Source: Thermoanaerobacteraceae bacterium (GTDB lineage: Bacteria; Bacillota; Thermoanaerobacteria; Thermoanaerobacterales; UBA4877). Taken from it: 44,047 bases of DNA. Position numbers and translations under genes: made by a program. Below, in pieces: positions 7,940 to 16,395 of the stretch. Under the pieces are notes generated by a model that saw nothing but the letters and a program-made list of their open reading frames with translations, made no database searches and was not told the origin of the DNA. Each line of letters opens with the position of its first letter. Positions within the stretch are counted from its first letter, which is position 1. The stretch covers positions 1 to 44,047 of the forward strand of contig JASEJQ010000015.1 in the NCBI GenBank assembly GCA_030016635.1. Reading direction: 5' to 3'.

Positions 7940-8359
7940 TTATAACCTGTCTTTCCGGCACTCCTTGCAGTACCCATATACCTCAAACCGGTGACCTGTA
8001 GGCATAAAACCTGTTTCATCAAGCACCTGCTTTAGTTCAATCAGGGGGCAGAAGTCAAAGGATATGGTCTTTCCACAGTTTTTGCATACTAAGTGGTGGT
8101 GGTGCTCCTCCTCATCCCTGTATGCAAAGAGGGTGTTACCTGTCCCATCCGTCATCTCGCATATAAGCCCTACGGACTTTAGCGTCTCAATATTCCTGTA
8201 TATTGTGGAAAAGTTGATGTGAGGCCAGGCCATGCTGGCCTCTTTATAAAGCTCCTGGGCTGTCATGGCCCTATGTGCATCTCTCAATGTATCTATGAGT
8301 ACCCTCCTCTGATGTGTCAGCCTTACACCCTTTTCTCTGAAACTCTTCTCAATGTCCAT
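7940..8359 (-). CDS. zur: Fur-family zinc uptake regulator (Zur-like)
   Basis: A 139-residue Fur-family repressor. An N-terminal winged helix (LTHQRRVLIDTLRDAHRAM and NFSTIYRNIETLKSVGLI) precedes a metal-sensing region with EEHHHHLVCKNCGK and a second CxxC in GYCKECRK, which form the structural zinc site. Its position as last gene of the znu operon makes Zur the best subtype, although Fur and PerR cannot be excluded from sequence alone. The ATG at 8359 overlaps the znuB stop (TAATG). It would bind the 7-1-7 palindrome upstream of znuA and so control its own expression. Confidence 0.88.
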   Translation of the reverse strand: MDIEKSFREKGVRLTHQRRVLIDTLRDAHRAMTAQELYKEASMAWPHINFSTIYRNIETLKSVGLICEMTDGTGNTLFAYRDEEEHHHHLVCKNCGKTISFDFCPLIELKQVLDETGFMPTGHRFEVYGYCKECRKDRL

Positions 8360-9159
8360 TATTCCCTGCCCCTCTTCCAAAGCAGTACAACTACTAAGAT
8401 AAGCACAGATGTTATGACTATAGTACCTCCAGGGGCTAAGTTCCATATAAAGGAGGCTATGAGACCCACTATCACAGACACCAGGGCAACAATTATGGAG
8501 ATGGCCATGGTAGCCTTAAAACTCTTGCCTATCTGTATGCCCACCGCTGCCGGTATCACCATGAGCGAGGACACCAGAAGGGTGCCCACCACCCTGATGG
8601 AGAGTGCCACTGTAAGTGCAGTCAGTATTGTAAAGAATATGTTTATTGCCCCTGTATTCACCCCCGAAAACTTAGCTGCGTCCTCATCAAAGGTCATGTA
8701 GAAGAGCCGCCTGTATATATATATCATGGATAGAAGTATGAATATCCCTACGGCCAGTATGAGCCAAAGGTCTGCTGGGGTCACCGCTACAATAGAACCA
8801 AACAGATAGCTGAAAATGTCCACGTTGAATGCCCTGCCAAGACTTATCAGGATGGTGGCCAGGCCTATCCCTCCGGACATTACCACAGCTAAGGATATCT
8901 CGGCATATTTCTTAAAATAATTCCTTAGAAATTCAATAAACAATGCCGCCAGTGCCGACATAACAAGAGCGCCTAAGAAGGGATAAAATCCCAGAAGCAT
9001 CCCTGCTGCCACGCCGGAGAGTGACACATGGGACAGAGCGTCCCCTATCATGGACATCCTCCTTAAGACTATAAAGGTACCTATTATGGAGCATATTATG
9101 GCAATCATTATCCCTGCTGCAAAGGCCCTCTGCATGAAGGCATAGCTCAATATATCCAT
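8359..9159 (-). CDS. znuB: Zinc/manganese ABC transporter permease
   Basis: A 266-residue integral membrane protein of the ABC-3 (ZnuB/MntB) family with about eight hydrophobic segments. Family marks include the N-terminal MQRAFAAGIMIAIICSIIGTFIVLRRMSMIGDALSH region (in two parts, with the conserved GDALSH) and the C-terminal VGTLLVSSLMVIPAAV. It forms the membrane channel for the zinc ion delivered by ZnuA. The order znuA-znuC-znuB-zur, with gaps of 1-6 bases, points to one transcript. Confidence 0.92.
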   Translation of the reverse strand: MDILSYAFMQRAFAAGIMIAIICSIIGTFIVLRRMSMIGDALSHVSLSGVAAGMLLGFYPFLGALVMSALAALFIEFLRNYFKKYAEISLAVVMSGGIGLATILISLGRAFNVDIFSYLFGSIVAVTPADLWLILAVGIFILLSMIYIYRRLFYMTFDEDAAKFSGVNTGAINIFFTILTALTVALSIRVVGTLLVSSLMVIPAAVGIQIGKSFKATMAISIIVALVSVIVGLIASFIWNLAPGGTIVITSVLILVVVLLWKRGRE

Positions 9160-10844: not shown

Positions 10845-10869
10845 CAAAAAAGCCGGATTACTCCGGCTT
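10845..10869 (-). terminator. Intrinsic terminator of the ccdA-tlpA unit
   Basis: On the minus strand AGCCGGA and TCCGGCT pair across a GTAA loop, followed by seven T. The stem overlaps the stop codon of the thioredoxin gene and lies just upstream of the znu promoter. Confidence 0.85.
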
Positions 10870-11472
10870 ATCCATGTTCTCTAAATATGCAACCATCTGG
10901 TCATAATTCATGGCTGAGTTTACCACGGCCTTTATTACACCATTTTCATCAATAAACATGCTCTCAGGTATGAAGTATATGTTATAGACGTAGCCCACCG
11001 CCAGATCACTGTCCATGAGTATGGGGAAATCCAGCTTATTCTCTGAGATAAACTGCTTTACCTTTTCGGTGTCCTCTCCTAAATTGATTCCGTATATTAA
11101 TATCTTATCCCCATATTCCTTGTAAAACCTGTTTATCTCCGGCATCTCCATGCGGCAGTATGGGCACTCTGTGGTCCAGAAGTTTAAAAATACCTTTTTG
11201 CCCTTAAGCTTGCTTAATGTTACCTCGTTGCCGTTCAAATCTTTGAGTGTAAAATCCGGAGCGATATTCCCCACATTAATCCCCACCTCAGGGGCAGCTA
11301 AGTCACTCTCCTCCGGCGTTACCTCACGTGTATCGCTGTTGTCCTGTCCTGCCTCTACTGCCTGTTCCTCCTTCGGTGGAGCAGTGTTATCTTTACTGTT
11401 TGCAGAGCCACATGCTGAAGCTAACATCATGGCAAATACTATGAGAAAAACTAATAAAATATTCTTTTTCAT
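10858..11472 (-). CDS. TlpA/ResA-like thiol-disulfide oxidoreductase lipoprotein
   Basis: A 204-residue protein with a lipobox (LASAC, Cys21), an acidic linker to about residue 60, then an AhpC/TlpA thioredoxin fold. The active site is CPYC at residues 103-106 (FWTTECPYCRMEMPEI), with the cis-Pro region near YFIPESMFID. It should reduce disulfides outside the membrane, using electrons from the CcdA-like protein encoded 12 bases upstream. Target proteins are unknown; no cytochrome c biogenesis genes are visible in the window. Confidence 0.9.
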   Translation of the reverse strand: MKKNILLVFLIVFAMMLASACGSANSKDNTAPPKEEQAVEAGQDNSDTREVTPEESDLAAPEVGINVGNIAPDFTLKDLNGNEVTLSKLKGKKVFLNFWTTECPYCRMEMPEINRFYKEYGDKILIYGINLGEDTEKVKQFISENKLDFPILMDSDLAVGYVYNIYFIPESMFIDENGVIKAVVNSAMNYDQMVAYLENMDKPE

Positions 11473-11484
11473 AAGACACCTCCA

Positions 11485-12123
11485 TTATAGAAAATAACTG
11501 CTCACCCTTATAATAAGACCGGTATAGATGAGTATGCCAAATATAATGAGGATGATACCACTGGCAATCTTTATATAAGGGAGATATCTGTTAATACTTT
11601 TGTAGATGTCGAAAAATCTGTCTATGGCCAGGCCAAGGGAGTATATACTCAGCAGCCATATACCCATCCATATAGTATTGCTCATCCCTGCATATATCAA
11701 TATGGAGCCAAGTATAGGTCCCATACAGGGTGTCCACCCTGCAGCAAAGGAAAGCCCCAGCAGGAATGAGGAAATCAGCCCTGTATTCTCTCCCGGCTCA
11801 AAGGCCTTATATTCACGAGATAAGAAATACGACTGTATAAGGCCGGTCTGGTATATCCCAAAGAGTATAACTATCACTCCGCCTATCTTCCTGAAAATGA
11901 GCATATTGCCTCTTAAAAATCCCCCTATCAGCGTGGCCGAGGCACCAAGTGATATAAAAACTATGGAAAAACCCAGTACAAAACTTATAAGCCCCCAGAG
12001 CCTTTTTTCTTTCTCTCCACCTGCCACATAGGATACATAGCCCGGCAGAAGCGGTACAATGCATGGTGAAAAAAAAGAAAATAACCCTGCTGTGAATGAA
12101 GCTATAACTGAAACCTCTCCCAT
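11485..12123 (-). CDS. ccdA: CcdA/DsbD-type transmembrane electron transporter
   Basis: A 212-residue membrane protein of the DsbD/CcdA family. The two redox cysteines lie in FFSPCIVPLLPGY and GWTPCMGPILG. It passes electrons from cytoplasmic thioredoxin across the membrane to the TlpA-like protein encoded next. The ATG at 12123 follows GGAGGGG and is preferred over the GTG at 12129. Compared with the usual CcdA pattern, the stretch after YSLGLAI goes straight to DRFFDIYKSINRYLPY; relatives normally have about ten hydrophobic residues there, so part of a membrane segment may be missing. Confidence 0.88.
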   Translation of the reverse strand: MGEVSVIASFTAGLFSFFSPCIVPLLPGYVSYVAGGEKEKRLWGLISFVLGFSIVFISLGASATLIGGFLRGNMLIFRKIGGVIVILFGIYQTGLIQSYFLSREYKAFEPGENTGLISSFLLGLSFAAGWTPCMGPILGSILIYAGMSNTIWMGIWLLSIYSLGLAIDRFFDIYKSINRYLPYIKIASGIILIIFGILIYTGLIIRVSSYFL

Positions 12124-12201
12124 AAACACCCCTCCCCCATAGGGCTTTTATTTTTAGTATACCATATGATTCGCCAAATACAAAAAATAATCTTATCTTT
12201 T

Positions 12202-12348
12202 CTTCTTATAATACCTCAGCCTGTAAGAAGGATAGAAATACCCAAACCAGATGGAGGAATAAGACTGATAGGCATACCCACAGTAGTAGATAGACTAATA
12301 CAGCAGGCCATAGCCCAGACACTATCAGGAAAAAGTTGGTTGGTGTAG
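12202..12348 (+). pseudogene. N-terminal fragment of a group II intron reverse transcriptase
   Basis: Plus-strand translation gives PQPVRRIEIPKPDGG followed by IRLIGIPTVVDRLIQQAIAQ, the RT0/RT1 region of bacterial group II intron reverse transcriptase-maturases. The reading ends with unrelated residues and a stop at 12348, so only about 40 residues of the enzyme remain. The matching C-terminal part lies at 16177-16320 on the same strand, 3.8 kb away. No intron 5' end (GTGYG) is recognisable between ccdA and this point. Confidence 0.88.
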
Positions 12349-12626: not shown

Positions 12627-12667
12627 AAAAAACACCCCACCTTGATAAAAAGGTGGAGTGTTTTTTG
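12627..12667. terminator. Bidirectional terminator
   Basis: AACACCCCACCTT (12631-12643) and AAGGTGGAGTGTT (12650-12662) form a 13-bp stem with one mismatch. It is flanked by A-runs on the left and T-runs on the right. On the minus strand it would end the osmC transcript directly after its stop codon. Confidence 0.85.
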
Positions 12668-12670
12668 CGC

Positions 12671-13114
12671 TTATTCAATAATTGTATCTGTCAAAACTAA
12701 TTTAACTTCATTTGCAATAGAATCGCCTACAGGGCAGGTTTTTTCTATAAATTTTACAAATTCTTCTACTTTTTCTTTTGGCGAGTCTGTTTTTATGTGC
12801 ATTTTAAATCTTATCTCTTGAAATCCTGGCCTTACATCAGCTTTACCCATGAATCCGTCCAAATCAATGTCTCCTTCTAATTCAACCCAAAAACCTTGAA
12901 GGTTTATGCCTTTTGCTTTTGCAAAAGCTGCTGCTACAATTGATTGGCATGACCCAAAAGCACAAAGAAGAGCCTCTACAGGATTCATTCCTTTATCCGT
13001 ACCGCCTAATTCTTTAGGTTCGTCTAAGATTATTTTAAAACCTCTTACCTCACTTTCAACTGCCAAACCCTCTGGCAATTTTCTTGAAACTGCTTTAAAG
13101 GTTTCAATTGCCAT
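12671..13114 (-). CDS. OsmC/Ohr-family peroxiredoxin
   Basis: A 147-residue OsmC-family protein. The conserved cysteines are Cys56 in AFGSCQSIV and Cys127 in KTCPVGDS, the peroxidatic and resolving pair of the family; a further Cys51 lies one turn before. OsmC/Ohr enzymes reduce organic hydroperoxides, and several are known to be re-reduced by lipoylated proteins with dihydrolipoamide dehydrogenase. That is notable because the next gene is a lipoyl-Lpd fusion and the one after it is a lipoate ligase. AAAGGAGG supports the start. Codons are more AT-rich than in genes outside 12.1-16.4 kb. Confidence 0.9.
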   Translation of the reverse strand: MAIETFKAVSRKLPEGLAVESEVRGFKIILDEPKELGGTDKGMNPVEALLCAFGSCQSIVAAAFAKAKGINLQGFWVELEGDIDLDGFMGKADVRPGFQEIRFKMHIKTDSPKEKVEEFVKFIEKTCPVGDSIANEVKLVLTDTIIE

Positions 13115-13203
13115 TTTAAACTCCTCCTTTTATTTTTCAAAATTTATATATTTTGAAAGCTCCATAAGAGCTTCGAAAGCATATAGATAAATGGCGCTAA
13201 AAA

Positions 13204-14859
13204 TTACACTTTGTGTATAGACTCTCCAAAGATGTCTTTAACAGCTTCCATAATAGTTTCACTTCGGGTAGGATGAGAATAAACCGCTTTCTTCAAAGCT
13301 TCTGCATCCACGCCTTCCTGGCAGGCTGTTGAAAGTATATGGATAAGTTCAGAAGCTCCACTACCTACCACCCACGCGCCGACTACTTCTCCTTTTTCGT
13401 TTGAAATTACTTTTGCAAAACCTTCCGTCTCTCCATATGTCTTGGCTCTTCCATTGTGTTCAAAATTAAATCTTCCTACTTTTATGTCTTTAAACTTCTT
13501 TCTCGCTTCCTCTTCAGTATAGCCAAAATACCCAATCTCAGGCTCTGTAAATACTGCTGCAGGTATCTTCATATAGTCTAAAGCATTTGATTCACCGAAA
13601 ATGTTGTCAACTGCTACTTCCCCTTGTGCTGATGCAACATGTGCCAACATCATTTTTCCTGTGACATCACCTATGGCATAAACGCCTTCTACATTTGTCC
13701 TCATGTGCTCATCAACTTTAATTGATCTTCCTTCAAATTCTAATAATTCTGCAATTGGACCAATATCTGTATTTAACTTTCTCCCTATTGATACAAACAC
13801 TTTATCTGCGTATATATGTTTTATATTTTCACCATTTTTAACAGATACTATGCTTCCGCCGTTTTCTTCTTCATCTATTCTATCAACTGTTGAAGAAGTG
13901 TATATCTTAATTCCTCTTCTTTGAGCCACAGTCCTAATAAAAGAACTTATCTCTTTATCAAGTGTAGGAAGAATGTCTGGCATCATTTCTACAACAAACA
14001 CTTTCACACCAAATTGATTCATTATAAAGGCGAATTCCATGCCTATTACTCCGCCACCTATAATGCACAAGCTTTGAGGCAAAGAAGTCATTTCAAGAAT
14101 AGTATCGCTATTCATGACATTTTTGGAATTAATGCCTTCAATAGGAAGTTCAGCAGGTGATGACCCGGTTGCAATGATAATATTTTTCGCTTTAATTTTG
14201 TTTTCTCCAAACAATACATTCTTTTCTTTGTCAACCTTTGCTTCATCGTAAAACAAATCCACTCCATTTGCTTTAAGCAAAGCATTTATGCCCTCTATAA
14301 GCTCTCCTACAATGTCATCTTTTCTTTTTACATTTTTAGCATAATCAAAAGAATTCACTTTCACATCAAATCCAAATTCCCCTGCTCGTTTTAAAATGTC
14401 ATACACTTCAGCTATTCTCGCATAAGCTTTTGTGGGTATACACCCTCTGTTTAAACAGGTCCCCCCTAATTTATCCTTCTCAAACAAAGCGACTTTTGCA
14501 CCTTTTTTAGCAGCTTTAATAGCAGCCACATACCCACCCGGTCCTGCCCCTATGGCAGCTAAATCATATTCTTTGTATTCATACTTAATTTCTTTTTGTG
14601 TGGCAGAAGGCTTGACTTCTTCAGACTGTGTAATAATTGCAATGACATCCCCCGGCTCAACTGTGCTTCCAGCAGAACAAACAATTTTTGAAATAATACC
14701 TTCGTAATCACTATACACTTCAAAACTCATTTTGTTTACTGCTACATCACACAAACAAGCCCCTTTTTCTATGTATTGTCCTTCTTCTACATACCATTTT
14801 GTAATTCGCCCGCTTTTCATTGTATCTGACAAAGCAGGTACTTTTATCTCTATTTCCAT
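13204..14859 (-). CDS. lpdA: Lipoyl domain fused to dihydrolipoamide dehydrogenase
   Basis: A 551-residue protein. Residues 1-75 are a biotinyl/lipoyl domain with the modifiable lysine at position 43 (AVNKMSFEV). After a short linker, residues 97-551 form dihydrolipoamide dehydrogenase: FAD site AAIGAGPGGYVAA, redox disulfide Cys135/Cys140 in GGTCLNRGCIPTK, a second dinucleotide site in CIIGGGVIGMEFA, and the C-terminal His-Glu pair in SHPTRSE. The enzyme oxidises dihydrolipoyl groups with NAD; the fused domain offers a built-in lipoyl substrate. The ATG at 14859 follows GGAGG and gives the natural lipoyl-domain start (MEIEIKVPALSDTM); the frame stays open further upstream without a start signal. 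No 2-oxoacid dehydrogenase E1/E2 genes are near. Confidence 0.95.
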   Translation of the reverse strand: MEIEIKVPALSDTMKSGRITKWYVEEGQYIEKGACLCDVAVNKMSFEVYSDYEGIISKIVCSAGSTVEPGDVIAIITQSEEVKPSATQKEIKYEYKEYDLAAIGAGPGGYVAAIKAAKKGAKVALFEKDKLGGTCLNRGCIPTKAYARIAEVYDILKRAGEFGFDVKVNSFDYAKNVKRKDDIVGELIEGINALLKANGVDLFYDEAKVDKEKNVLFGENKIKAKNIIIATGSSPAELPIEGINSKNVMNSDTILEMTSLPQSLCIIGGGVIGMEFAFIMNQFGVKVFVVEMMPDILPTLDKEISSFIRTVAQRRGIKIYTSSTVDRIDEEENGGSIVSVKNGENIKHIYADKVFVSIGRKLNTDIGPIAELLEFEGRSIKVDEHMRTNVEGVYAIGDVTGKMMLAHVASAQGEVAVDNIFGESNALDYMKIPAAVFTEPEIGYFGYTEEEARKKFKDIKVGRFNFEHNGRAKTYGETEGFAKVISNEKGEVVGAWVVGSGASELIHILSTACQEGVDAEALKKAVYSHPTRSETIMEAVKDIFGESIHKV

Positions 14860-15052
14860 CAATATACCTCCAATTCCGTCTCTCTTAGCAATTTTGCCCA
14901 CCAACAATATCTCATTTAACAGACCCCACCTTGGTGGAAGGGGGCCGAATTTGATAAAATAAAAACGATGATTATTTAACAATTTTTCTTATATATATCT
15001 TATCACTTTGTCGTTAGAAATTCAACAACCTAAAAATATTTTTTAAACCCTA

Positions 15053-16033
15053 TCAAAACATCACTTCGATTAAATTGTCAACAGTTATGTTAGCAAAATA
15101 ATCGTTTATATCAATATTTGAAAGCACTTTTCTTATCTCTTCCTCTGAATGTTTTACACCTTTTAGAAGATTTTCTAATTCTGACACATCGTATTTCCCA
15201 AAAAAATCTCCATAAATTTTTATATCTTTTATTGTCCCTTTTCCAACGTTTAAATTTACTTCCACAGTGCCACTGACAAATTTCTTTTCATTTTTAAAGC
15301 TGTAATCAGGGGATGTTCCAAAATTCCATTCCCATGTACTGTATTTTTCTCTAACCAATTTTTCTATCTTTTCCAAATCCTCTTGTGTAAATTCATACAA
15401 TTCGTTGCCACCACTTTGCTTTCTAATATGATTCATAATAAGGTCTATAAATTGTTCTATTGTAATAGGCTCTTTTAAATGCTCGCTTATATTTGTAACT
15501 CTTTTAGATACAGACTTTACGCCTTTATCTTCAAATTTAACTGGCCTTACTTTCAGTGCCGCTGACAAATCGGTAATACTTGAAGAAAACAAAAGGGTTC
15601 CATGATGTAATATCTTATTTTTATAGTAATACTGTGCATTTCCTGAAAATTTTTTGCCGTCAATTGTTAAATCGTTTCTCCCTGAAAACTCAGCATTTAC
15701 TGAAAGTTTTTTGAGCACATCTATTATTGGCTGTGTAAATCTTTTAAAATCGCTAAAACTGTTGACATCATCGTTTACTATAAAAGTAAAATTTAAGTTA
15801 CCAAGGTCGTGAAAAACTGCTCCTCCTCCTGACAATCTTCTGACAACTGGAATTTTATGTTCTCTCACATAATCTAAATTTATTTCCGCTAAGGTGTTTT
15901 GATTTTTGCCTACTATAATGCTGGGTTCATTTCGCCACAGCATAAAACACTCTTCTTCAAATTCTTTTAAAACATATTCTTCTGCTGCTAAATTAAAATA
16001 GGGACTTGTGTTTTTATTGTAAATATATAACAT
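15053..16033 (-). CDS. lplA: Lipoate-protein ligase A
   Basis: A 326-residue protein of the LplA family. It has an N-terminal catalytic domain with NLAAEEYVL, the lipoate-binding RRLSGGGAVFHDLGN and the lysine region GKKFSGNAQ, followed by a C-terminal accessory domain (FGTSPDYSFKNEKKF). It activates lipoate with ATP and attaches it to lipoyl domains, here most likely Lys43 of the neighbouring LpdA. The ATG at 16033 fits AGGAGA better than the GTG at 16039. It is the first gene of lplA-lpdA-osmC on the minus strand, AT-rich and bounded by group II intron remnants. Confidence 0.93.
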   Translation of the reverse strand: MLYIYNKNTSPYFNLAAEEYVLKEFEEECFMLWRNEPSIIVGKNQNTLAEINLDYVREHKIPVVRRLSGGGAVFHDLGNLNFTFIVNDDVNSFSDFKRFTQPIIDVLKKLSVNAEFSGRNDLTIDGKKFSGNAQYYYKNKILHHGTLLFSSSITDLSAALKVRPVKFEDKGVKSVSKRVTNISEHLKEPITIEQFIDLIMNHIRKQSGGNELYEFTQEDLEKIEKLVREKYSTWEWNFGTSPDYSFKNEKKFVSGTVEVNLNVGKGTIKDIKIYGDFFGKYDVSELENLLKGVKHSEEEIRKVLSNIDINDYFANITVDNLIEVMF

Positions 16034-16176
16034 ACCCACTTCTCCTTGTCTTGATTTTAACGATTATTGACTATTAAGACGAGTAGTAACCAAAAGGTTC
16101 TACAGGGGGAAGCAAGAGCTTCCGAGCCATTGTTAAGGCTTATATAACAATTATACCAGAGGATACACCTAAAGTT

Positions 16177-16320
16177 AATATAGGGCCAAATAAACAGGAT
16201 ACTACAACCACAAATTCTCTCAATAGTCCCATAATACCCAAGGCCCTCAACAATAAATACCTTGAGGGCCTTGGGTACGTAACTCTTACAAGCATGTATC
16301 AGAAAGTGCATAATTTCTAA
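16177..16320 (+). pseudogene. C-terminal fragment of the group II intron reverse transcriptase
   Basis: Plus-strand frame ending TAA at 16318-16320 translates to NSPIIPKALNNKYLEGLG followed by YVTLTSMYQKVHNF, the usual C-terminal end of group II intron reverse transcriptase-maturases. The stop is followed directly by the intron's domain V, as in intact introns. Upstream of about 16177 similarity is lost. With the N-terminal fragment at 12202-12348 it brackets the osmC-lpdA-lplA block. Confidence 0.85.
16235..16277. repeat. Perfect 16-bp inverted repeat with 11-base loop
   Basis: TACCCAAGGCCCTCAA at 16235-16250 is exactly complementary to TTGAGGGCCTTGGGTA at 16262-16277. It lies inside the coding remnant of the reverse transcriptase C-terminus (residues PKALNNKYLEGLGY). 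It has no T-tract. It may be a chance of the codons used or a structural part of intron domain IV. Confidence 0.8.
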
Positions 16321-16321
16321 C

Positions 16322-16395
16322 GAACCCCGTATGCCGAACGGCACGTACGGTGGTGTGAGAGGGGATAGATGAGTTAATCATCTATCCCCTCCTCG
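16322..16395 (+). ncRNA. 3' end of a group II intron (domains V and VI)
   Basis: GAACCCCGTATGCCG pairs with CGGCACGTACGGTGG around an AA-containing tip, the form of group II intron domain V. It is followed by GTGTGAGAGG and a 14-bp hairpin (GAGGGGATAGATGA with its complement) ending CCTCCTCGATT, matching the usual domain VI and 3' end. The intron end touches the stop codon of the minus-strand gene at 16397. The 5' half of the intron is missing or unrecognisable, so self-splicing is not expected. The hairpin could also serve as a 3' structure for the minus-strand transcript. Confidence 0.8.

Follow-up and report, generated by a model that had tools for sequence, protein, structure and literature searches.

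The presence of lipoic acid in bacteria is usually explained by enzymes of central carbon metabolism, and AhpD is itself a lipoyl-dependent adaptor. Ohr of Corynebacterium glutamicum takes electrons from LpdA with a turnover number (kcat) of 5.3 per s (PMC4486171), OsmC of the same bacterium is regenerated preferentially through AhpD (PMC8945050), and OsmC of Trichomonas vaginalis receives its electrons via the L and H proteins of glycine decarboxylase (PMC7946386). Here, we analyze a 44,047-nt stretch of DNA (the window; contig JASEJQ010000015.1 of assembly GCA_030016635.1) from a Thermoanaerobacteraceae bacterium (the host), in which genes for a lipoate–protein ligase (lplA), a dihydrolipoyl dehydrogenase with an N-terminal lipoyl domain (lpd; protein LpdA) and an OsmC-family protein (osmC) follow one another, in this order, on the minus strand. 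We consider it likely that this cassette is an acquired hydroperoxide-reducing chain, running from NADH through lipoyl-LpdA to OsmC, that has been added on to the lipoate metabolism of its host. A literature search for the lipoyl-lpd/lplA/osmC arrangement found, among the papers it covered, none describing exactly such a set.

Coordinates and searches against Pfam and NCBIfam bear out the initial annotation of the window, which had placed the three genes together on one strand (Table 1). Gaps of 193 nt and 89 nt separate lplA from lpd and lpd from osmC, respectively. LplA scored 468 bits against TIGR00545 (NCBIfam cut-off of 280), with both the catalytic and the C-terminal accessory domains detected by Pfam, and LpdA scored 498 bits against TIGR01350 (NCBIfam cut-off of 408.8), with the Pyr_redox_2/dimer domains also matched in Pfam and with the His-Pro-Thr motif and the CxxxxC redox disulfide both found by alignment. 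The Pfam score of OsmC against PF02566 was 84 bits (cut-off of 27.5), and osmC is the sole match to this family in the host genome. The residues singled out in the initial annotation, Lys43 and Cys135/Cys140 of LpdA and Cys56/Cys127 of OsmC, were all recovered in alignments: Lys43 is kept in 14/14 aligned fused homologues of the order and in 15/15 rows of a second, phylum-wide alignment, and both cysteines of OsmC are invariant among 17 homologues. The presence of lplA in the neighborhood, or of lipB-lipA in genome G003 and at locus L109, argues for lipoate rather than biotin as the predicted modification of the LpdA lysine.

The association of this OsmC with lipoyl-Lpd extends through the order. 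The protein is present in 19 genomes, in 18 of which its gene lies inside the lplA/lpd locus (the exception being G001); the initial annotation had named a lack of such linkage in other genomes as a reason to doubt its reading, and the linkage proved to be conserved. In G003, the genes form an lpd-lipB-lipA-osmC operon with a close lpd-lipB junction, a 4-nt overlap between lipB and lipA, and an osmC start inside lipA. A search of this genome (99% complete) found neither GcvH, the H protein of glycine cleavage, nor the E2 subunit of a 2-oxoacid dehydrogenase, and apart from LpdA its one strong match to the biotin/lipoyl domain is a biotin carrier bearing an EAMKM motif; LpdA is the only lipoyl acceptor that our search could find in G003. 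Genome G015 has a deletion of the lipoyl domain and an osmC truncated at residue 63, with the glycine cleavage (gcv) genes, lplA, and the Lpd core all retained.

To place these observations in a broader context, we sampled 398 genomes of the phylum and read 14 further lipoyl-fused lpd loci, with 22 unfused lpd loci as controls. An AhpD-like gene or osmC adjoins lpd at 10/14 fused and 2/22 unfused loci (Fisher's exact p = 1.9e-4), a difference to be read bearing in mind that the AhpD partner had been spotted before the test was designed, that some of the same loci went into building the AhpD and OsmC profiles, that some control loci were shorter, and that some genomes are related to each other. 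Among the fused loci, 7 have an AhpD-like gene directly upstream of lpd and 3 have an adjacent osmC (one as osmC-lpd-lipB-lipA and one beside lpd-lplA), 3 (L116, L120, and L121) lie with E1 and E2 genes, and 1 is of unclear context; the gaps between lpd and its osmC or AhpD-like partner span 23 to 325 nt. At both positive unfused loci, the partner is an OsmC-family gene located within the locus, next to a GcvH-like gene. The signature E-x11-C-x2-C-x3-H is present in 9/9 aligned AhpD-like proteins, including the 7 from fused lpd loci, and PF02627 was matched in all 4 such proteins scanned with Pfam; the window itself contains no AhpD-like gene. A Pfam-confirmed MarR-type regulator is found at 4 of the 10 OsmC/AhpD loci (L110, L112, L115, and L119, the first and third being closely related to each other), and L114 carries a regulator of the ArsR type. 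Thus, both the survey and the G003 operon reveal linkage of lipoyl-Lpd with OsmC or AhpD that is independent of E1 and E2. Together with the order-wide linkage and the joint loss in G015, they make up four independent lines of evidence that OsmC belongs with lipoyl-Lpd, and the coupling of the two proteins put forward in the initial annotation thereby gains comparative support.

At loci L133 and L141, genes for an OsmC-family protein and a GcvH-like protein accompany that for an Lpd devoid of a lipoyl domain, with no GcvT or GcvP matched there; these loci possibly represent a two-piece version of the lipoyl-Lpd/OsmC chain.

Since Ohr and OsmC of other bacteria are known to receive electrons from lipoylated proteins, we suggest the following mechanism. 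LplA, or LipB/LipA of the host, would attach lipoate to Lys43 of LpdA; electrons would pass from NADH to FAD, to the Cys135-Cys140 disulfide, and to the lipoyl group on the enzyme's own N-terminal domain; and the dihydrolipoyl arm would then reduce the Cys56-Cys127 disulfide formed in OsmC after reduction of an organic hydroperoxide, LpdA serving in the cell as a single-chain reductase for OsmC. We judge the cassette to be a single-chain, recurrent variant of the known lipoyl-dependent peroxidase, and fusion of the lipoyl arm to Lpd would be a natural route to a stand-alone reductase for OsmC and AhpD-like partners.

The OsmC protein itself is consistent with this role in its fold and its two cysteines. 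Its AlphaFold2 model has the OsmC fold (predicted local distance difference test score, 86.6) and matches OsmC/Ohr structures, the best matches in PDB being OsmC-like proteins and the top one OsmC of Mycoplasma pneumoniae (1lql), the nearest structural relative, of which we take MG427 of M. genitalium to be the counterpart. MG427 is a demonstrated hydroperoxide peroxidase (PMC9262362). Arg24 and Glu47 are invariant in the alignment of 17 homologues, and Glu47 sits in a P-x-E context. The latter is shifted by one relative to what we take to be the NPE context of Ohr/OsmC proteins.

Several observations weigh against a lipoyl-LpdA/OsmC peroxidase chain. The osmC gene is unlinked to lpd in G001, in Paenibacillus, and in other distant relatives, and a DNA scan of loci from Paenibacillus, Peptococcaceae, and Caldisericia found no osmC-lpd linkage beyond the order, although a broader Lpd search outside the order did turn up other OsmC-lpd pairs. 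Genomes G013 and G018 retain osmC after losing lipoyl-Lpd from the locus; an AhpD-like gene is present there, though. Furthermore, gcv genes lie alongside in 16 of the 18 linked genomes, so that the linkage could partly reflect a role of Lpd as the L protein of glycine cleavage. The window OsmC reaches none of the NCBIfam subfamily cut-offs (the best score is 75 bits against 95 for NF041052, and that for Ohr, TIGR03561, is 26 against 89), and its P-x-E spacing is presumably that of YhfA, a protein of unproven activity; on these two grounds, we only infer that it is a peroxidase. It belongs to an uncharacterised subfamily different from Ohr/OsmC of Xylella fastidiosa and C. glutamicum. The catalytic Arg and Glu beside the peroxidatic cysteine are absent in YhfA (PMC8945050). 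Among distant relatives of the protein, those at L087–L089 (Smithellaceae/Syntrophaceae bins) lie near cytochrome bd-type oxidase and rubrerythrin-like genes, named by eye from the sequence.

Close relatives of LpdA also occur in another setting. At loci L041, L042, L046, and L104 (genomes G018, G013, G012, and G009, respectively), a second Lpd, which lacks the lipoyl domain and is 78% to 92% identical to LpdA of the window, shares an operon with TusA, a YeeE-type sulfur transporter, DsrE proteins, DsrH, and a GcvH-like protein, an operon that may encode a lipoyl-dependent sulfur-transfer module. This setting favors the view that lipoyl-Lpd acts as a thiol-disulfide reductase of general use, analogous to the thioredoxin system but lipoyl-based, with OsmC as one of several clients and perhaps a persulfide or other thiol compound as substrate, as do the alternation of OsmC and AhpD-like partners and the finding that lipoylated LpdA also reduces 5,5′-dithiobis-(2-nitrobenzoic acid) in vitro (PMC3469484). 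However, OsmC and AhpD, the recurrent partners, are both known hydroperoxide-pathway proteins, and a MarR-type regulator accompanies 4 of the 10 fused lpd loci at which they occur; we regard a general reductase as very unlikely.

The cassette does not account for all of the lipoate metabolism of the host. The initial annotation had noted the lack of 2-oxoacid dehydrogenase and glycine cleavage genes nearby, which holds for the window, where no E1, E2, or gcv genes were found, but not for the genome. Family searches of the host genome established three E1α-E1β-E2 operons, on contigs C25, C81, and C87, and a partial E2 on C106; gcvT, gcvH, gcvPA, and gcvPB together with another ligase-family gene on C103; and, on C106, both LipB and LipA. 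A lipB copy without its middle is also present on C87 (L030:1405-1800), the copy on C106 being intact. The ends of contigs C25 and C87 carry the same opening 12 codons of a native lpd, VDYDVIVVGGGP (G000:C25:37781-37817 and G000:C87:7591-7627), and a complete native-type lpd, scoring 549 bits as dihydrolipoyl dehydrogenase, follows an almost identical E2 in G001; the native lpd copies of the host are probably identical repeats dropped from the draft assembly. No other strong Lpd was seen in the host at first, and LpdA was considered as its only dihydrolipoyl dehydrogenase component (E3), an idea rejected on account of the native lpd starts at the ends of C25 and C87. Given this inventory, the earlier picture of a self-contained system needing only scavenged lipoate is not tenable, a 2-oxoacid dehydrogenase elsewhere in the genome having been named in the initial annotation as evidence that would count against it. 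In the host, the cassette is an add-on to ordinary lipoate metabolism rather than all of it, and the initial interpretation is partly supported: its general idea is well supported by comparative evidence, its application as the sole lipoate system is not.

A recent horizontal transfer of the block from a Thermoanaerobacter-like donor is well supported by its foreign G+C content, its DNA matches to Thermoanaerobacter-type genomes, which come from another family of the same order, the remnants of a group II intron on both flanks (Table 1), and protein identities. Full-length relatives of LpdA in the order are 72% to 94% identical, with the highest values in Thermoanaerobacter-type genomes, whereas the native gcv proteins of the host are only about 52% to 63% identical to those of the same genomes. 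An Rfam scan of the window gave no match, and the intron remnants were accordingly recognized by their nucleotide similarity to intron copies of related genomes; no further copy of the 111 bases surrounding the upstream remnant is present in the host assembly. The intron remnants and foreign G+C content would also fit a transient import without selected function in the host. Such an import is most improbable, given that all three frames are intact, without internal stops, with ratios of nonsynonymous to synonymous substitution rates of 0.04 to 0.11 relative to the donors (a pairwise measure that spans more than the time since transfer and cannot single it out), and that osmC is now the only gene of its family in the host genome.

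In Thermoanaerobacter-type donors, lplA-lpd-osmC and gcvT-gcvH-gcvPA-gcvPB are arranged back to back, and in genus g3 the set likewise lies beside the same gcv genes. The cassette has no glycine cleavage genes nearby because the transfer brought only one half of the donor locus. The donor Lpd probably also provides the L protein for the glycine cleavage system encoded next to it, and LpdA and LplA might be a plain E3/L protein and lipoate ligase with OsmC as a passenger, LpdA serving the E1/E2 complexes and GcvH of the host after transfer. Besides the donor gene order, this reading draws on the requirement of the host GcvH and of the three complete E1/E2 operons for an E3 and on the lack of complete native lpd genes in the host assembly. 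Yet native lpd starts follow two of the host E2 genes, with the gene complete in G001; lipoyl-Lpd and osmC are kept in G003, where no GcvH or E2 was found; the lipoyl domain is unnecessary for E3 or L function and was lost together with osmC in G015; and at 10 of the 14 further fused loci the neighbor of lpd is osmC or ahpD rather than E1/E2. We therefore consider a plain E3/L-protein role unlikely and favor the peroxidase chain.

Table 1. Features of the cassette and of the transferred block, with LpdA residues numbered from the ATG at 14859.
Feature	Position in window	Strand	Evidence
lplA, lipoate–protein ligase, 326 aa, two-domain with C-terminal domain	15053-16033	-	PF21948, 245 bits; PF10437, 110 bits
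lpd (LpdA), dihydrolipoyl dehydrogenase with N-terminal lipoyl domain, 551 aa from ATG	13204-14859	-	PF00364, 70 bits; TIGR01350
LpdA lipoyl domain, residues 4-76	14632-14850	-	PF00364 match
Lys43 codon, predicted lipoylation site	14731-14733	-	Place within domain and alignment
LpdA redox-active disulfide Cys135-Cys140 (GGTCLNRGC)	14440-14457	-	Alignment
osmC, OsmC-family protein, 147 aa, Cys56 and Cys127	12671-13114	-	PF02566, 84 bits
Horizontally acquired block	12628-16066	.	85-88% nucleotide identity to Thermoanaerobacter-type loci; G+C 34.6% (44.3% outside)
Remnant of group II intron reverse-transcriptase open reading frame, downstream flank	12213-12324	+	82% nucleotide identity to intron open reading frame in L034/L046
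Remnant of 3′ end of same group II intron type, upstream flank	16306-16362	+	88% nucleotide identity to intron ends in L034/L046
Hairpin with T-run 3′ of osmC, candidate terminator of the unit	12637-12656	.	Consensus match alone

Past the intron remnant, in the native DNA that adjoins the downstream end of the cassette, the window encodes a ResA/TlpA-like thiol oxidoreductase and a CcdA/DsbD-type membrane protein (10858-12129), and a Fur/PerR-family regulator (7940-8446), approximately 4 kb from osmC, adjoins a zinc/manganese-type ATP-binding cassette transporter.

Beyond the cassette itself, we see about an even chance that Lpd that carries a lipoyl domain and comes without E1/E2 acts as a dedicated reductase of peroxidases, widespread in the phylum, a lipoyl counterpart of AhpF with interchangeable OsmC and AhpD-like partners and often with its own lipoate ligase or lipB-lipA, and that at least one species (G003) makes lipoate solely for this chain. 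If so, the recurrent operon of lipoyl-Lpd, OsmC/AhpD, and lipoate-attachment genes would show lipoate working chiefly as a redox arm in peroxide defense, would account for the retention of lipoate genes in some bacteria that have neither 2-oxoacid dehydrogenases nor glycine cleavage, and would lead to reassignment of many proteins annotated merely as "dihydrolipoyl dehydrogenase." The idea is directly testable in G003, where our search revealed no lipoyl protein that would compete with LpdA.

Among described systems, the lipoyl-dependent Ohr/OsmC chains of X. fastidiosa and C. glutamicum likewise combine a two-cysteine Ohr/OsmC-family protein with a lipoylated protein as reductant (PMC8945050 and PMC4486171), and LpdA acting alone is reported as a reductant of X. 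fastidiosa Ohr (Cussiol 2010, as cited in PMC8945050). The lipoylated partners in those papers are mostly shared metabolic complexes, and a dedicated operon with lipoate-attachment genes is not mentioned in them, whereas here lpd, the lipoate ligase gene, and osmC move together as a unit, and do so in anaerobes. T. vaginalis is also an anaerobe, with OsmC fed by lipoate via the glycine cleavage L and H proteins, and osmC of the donor genomes lies in a gcv neighborhood; the lipoyl carrier of T. vaginalis, however, is a separate H protein, whereas in the cassette it forms a domain of the L protein itself, and the search of G003 recovered no H protein. The AhpC-AhpD-DlaT-Lpd peroxidase of Mycobacterium tuberculosis, as cited in PMC8945050, passes electrons from NADH through Lpd, a lipoyl group, and a CxxC adaptor to the peroxidase, and AhpD-like genes with the same motif adjoin many fused lpd genes of the phylum; its lipoyl donor is the E2 subunit of a 2-oxoacid dehydrogenase, in contrast to the fused domain of LpdA, and at some of our loci OsmC takes the place of the peroxidase. 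The E3 of AcoL type or of pyruvate dehydrogenase with an N-terminal lipoyl domain shares the architecture of LpdA, and L116, L120, and L121 are of this kind, but its genes sit with E1 and E2, whereas the window cassette and most other fused loci do not. AhpF, finally, is a disulfide reductase with its own N-terminal redox domain that serves AhpC, as LpdA would serve OsmC.

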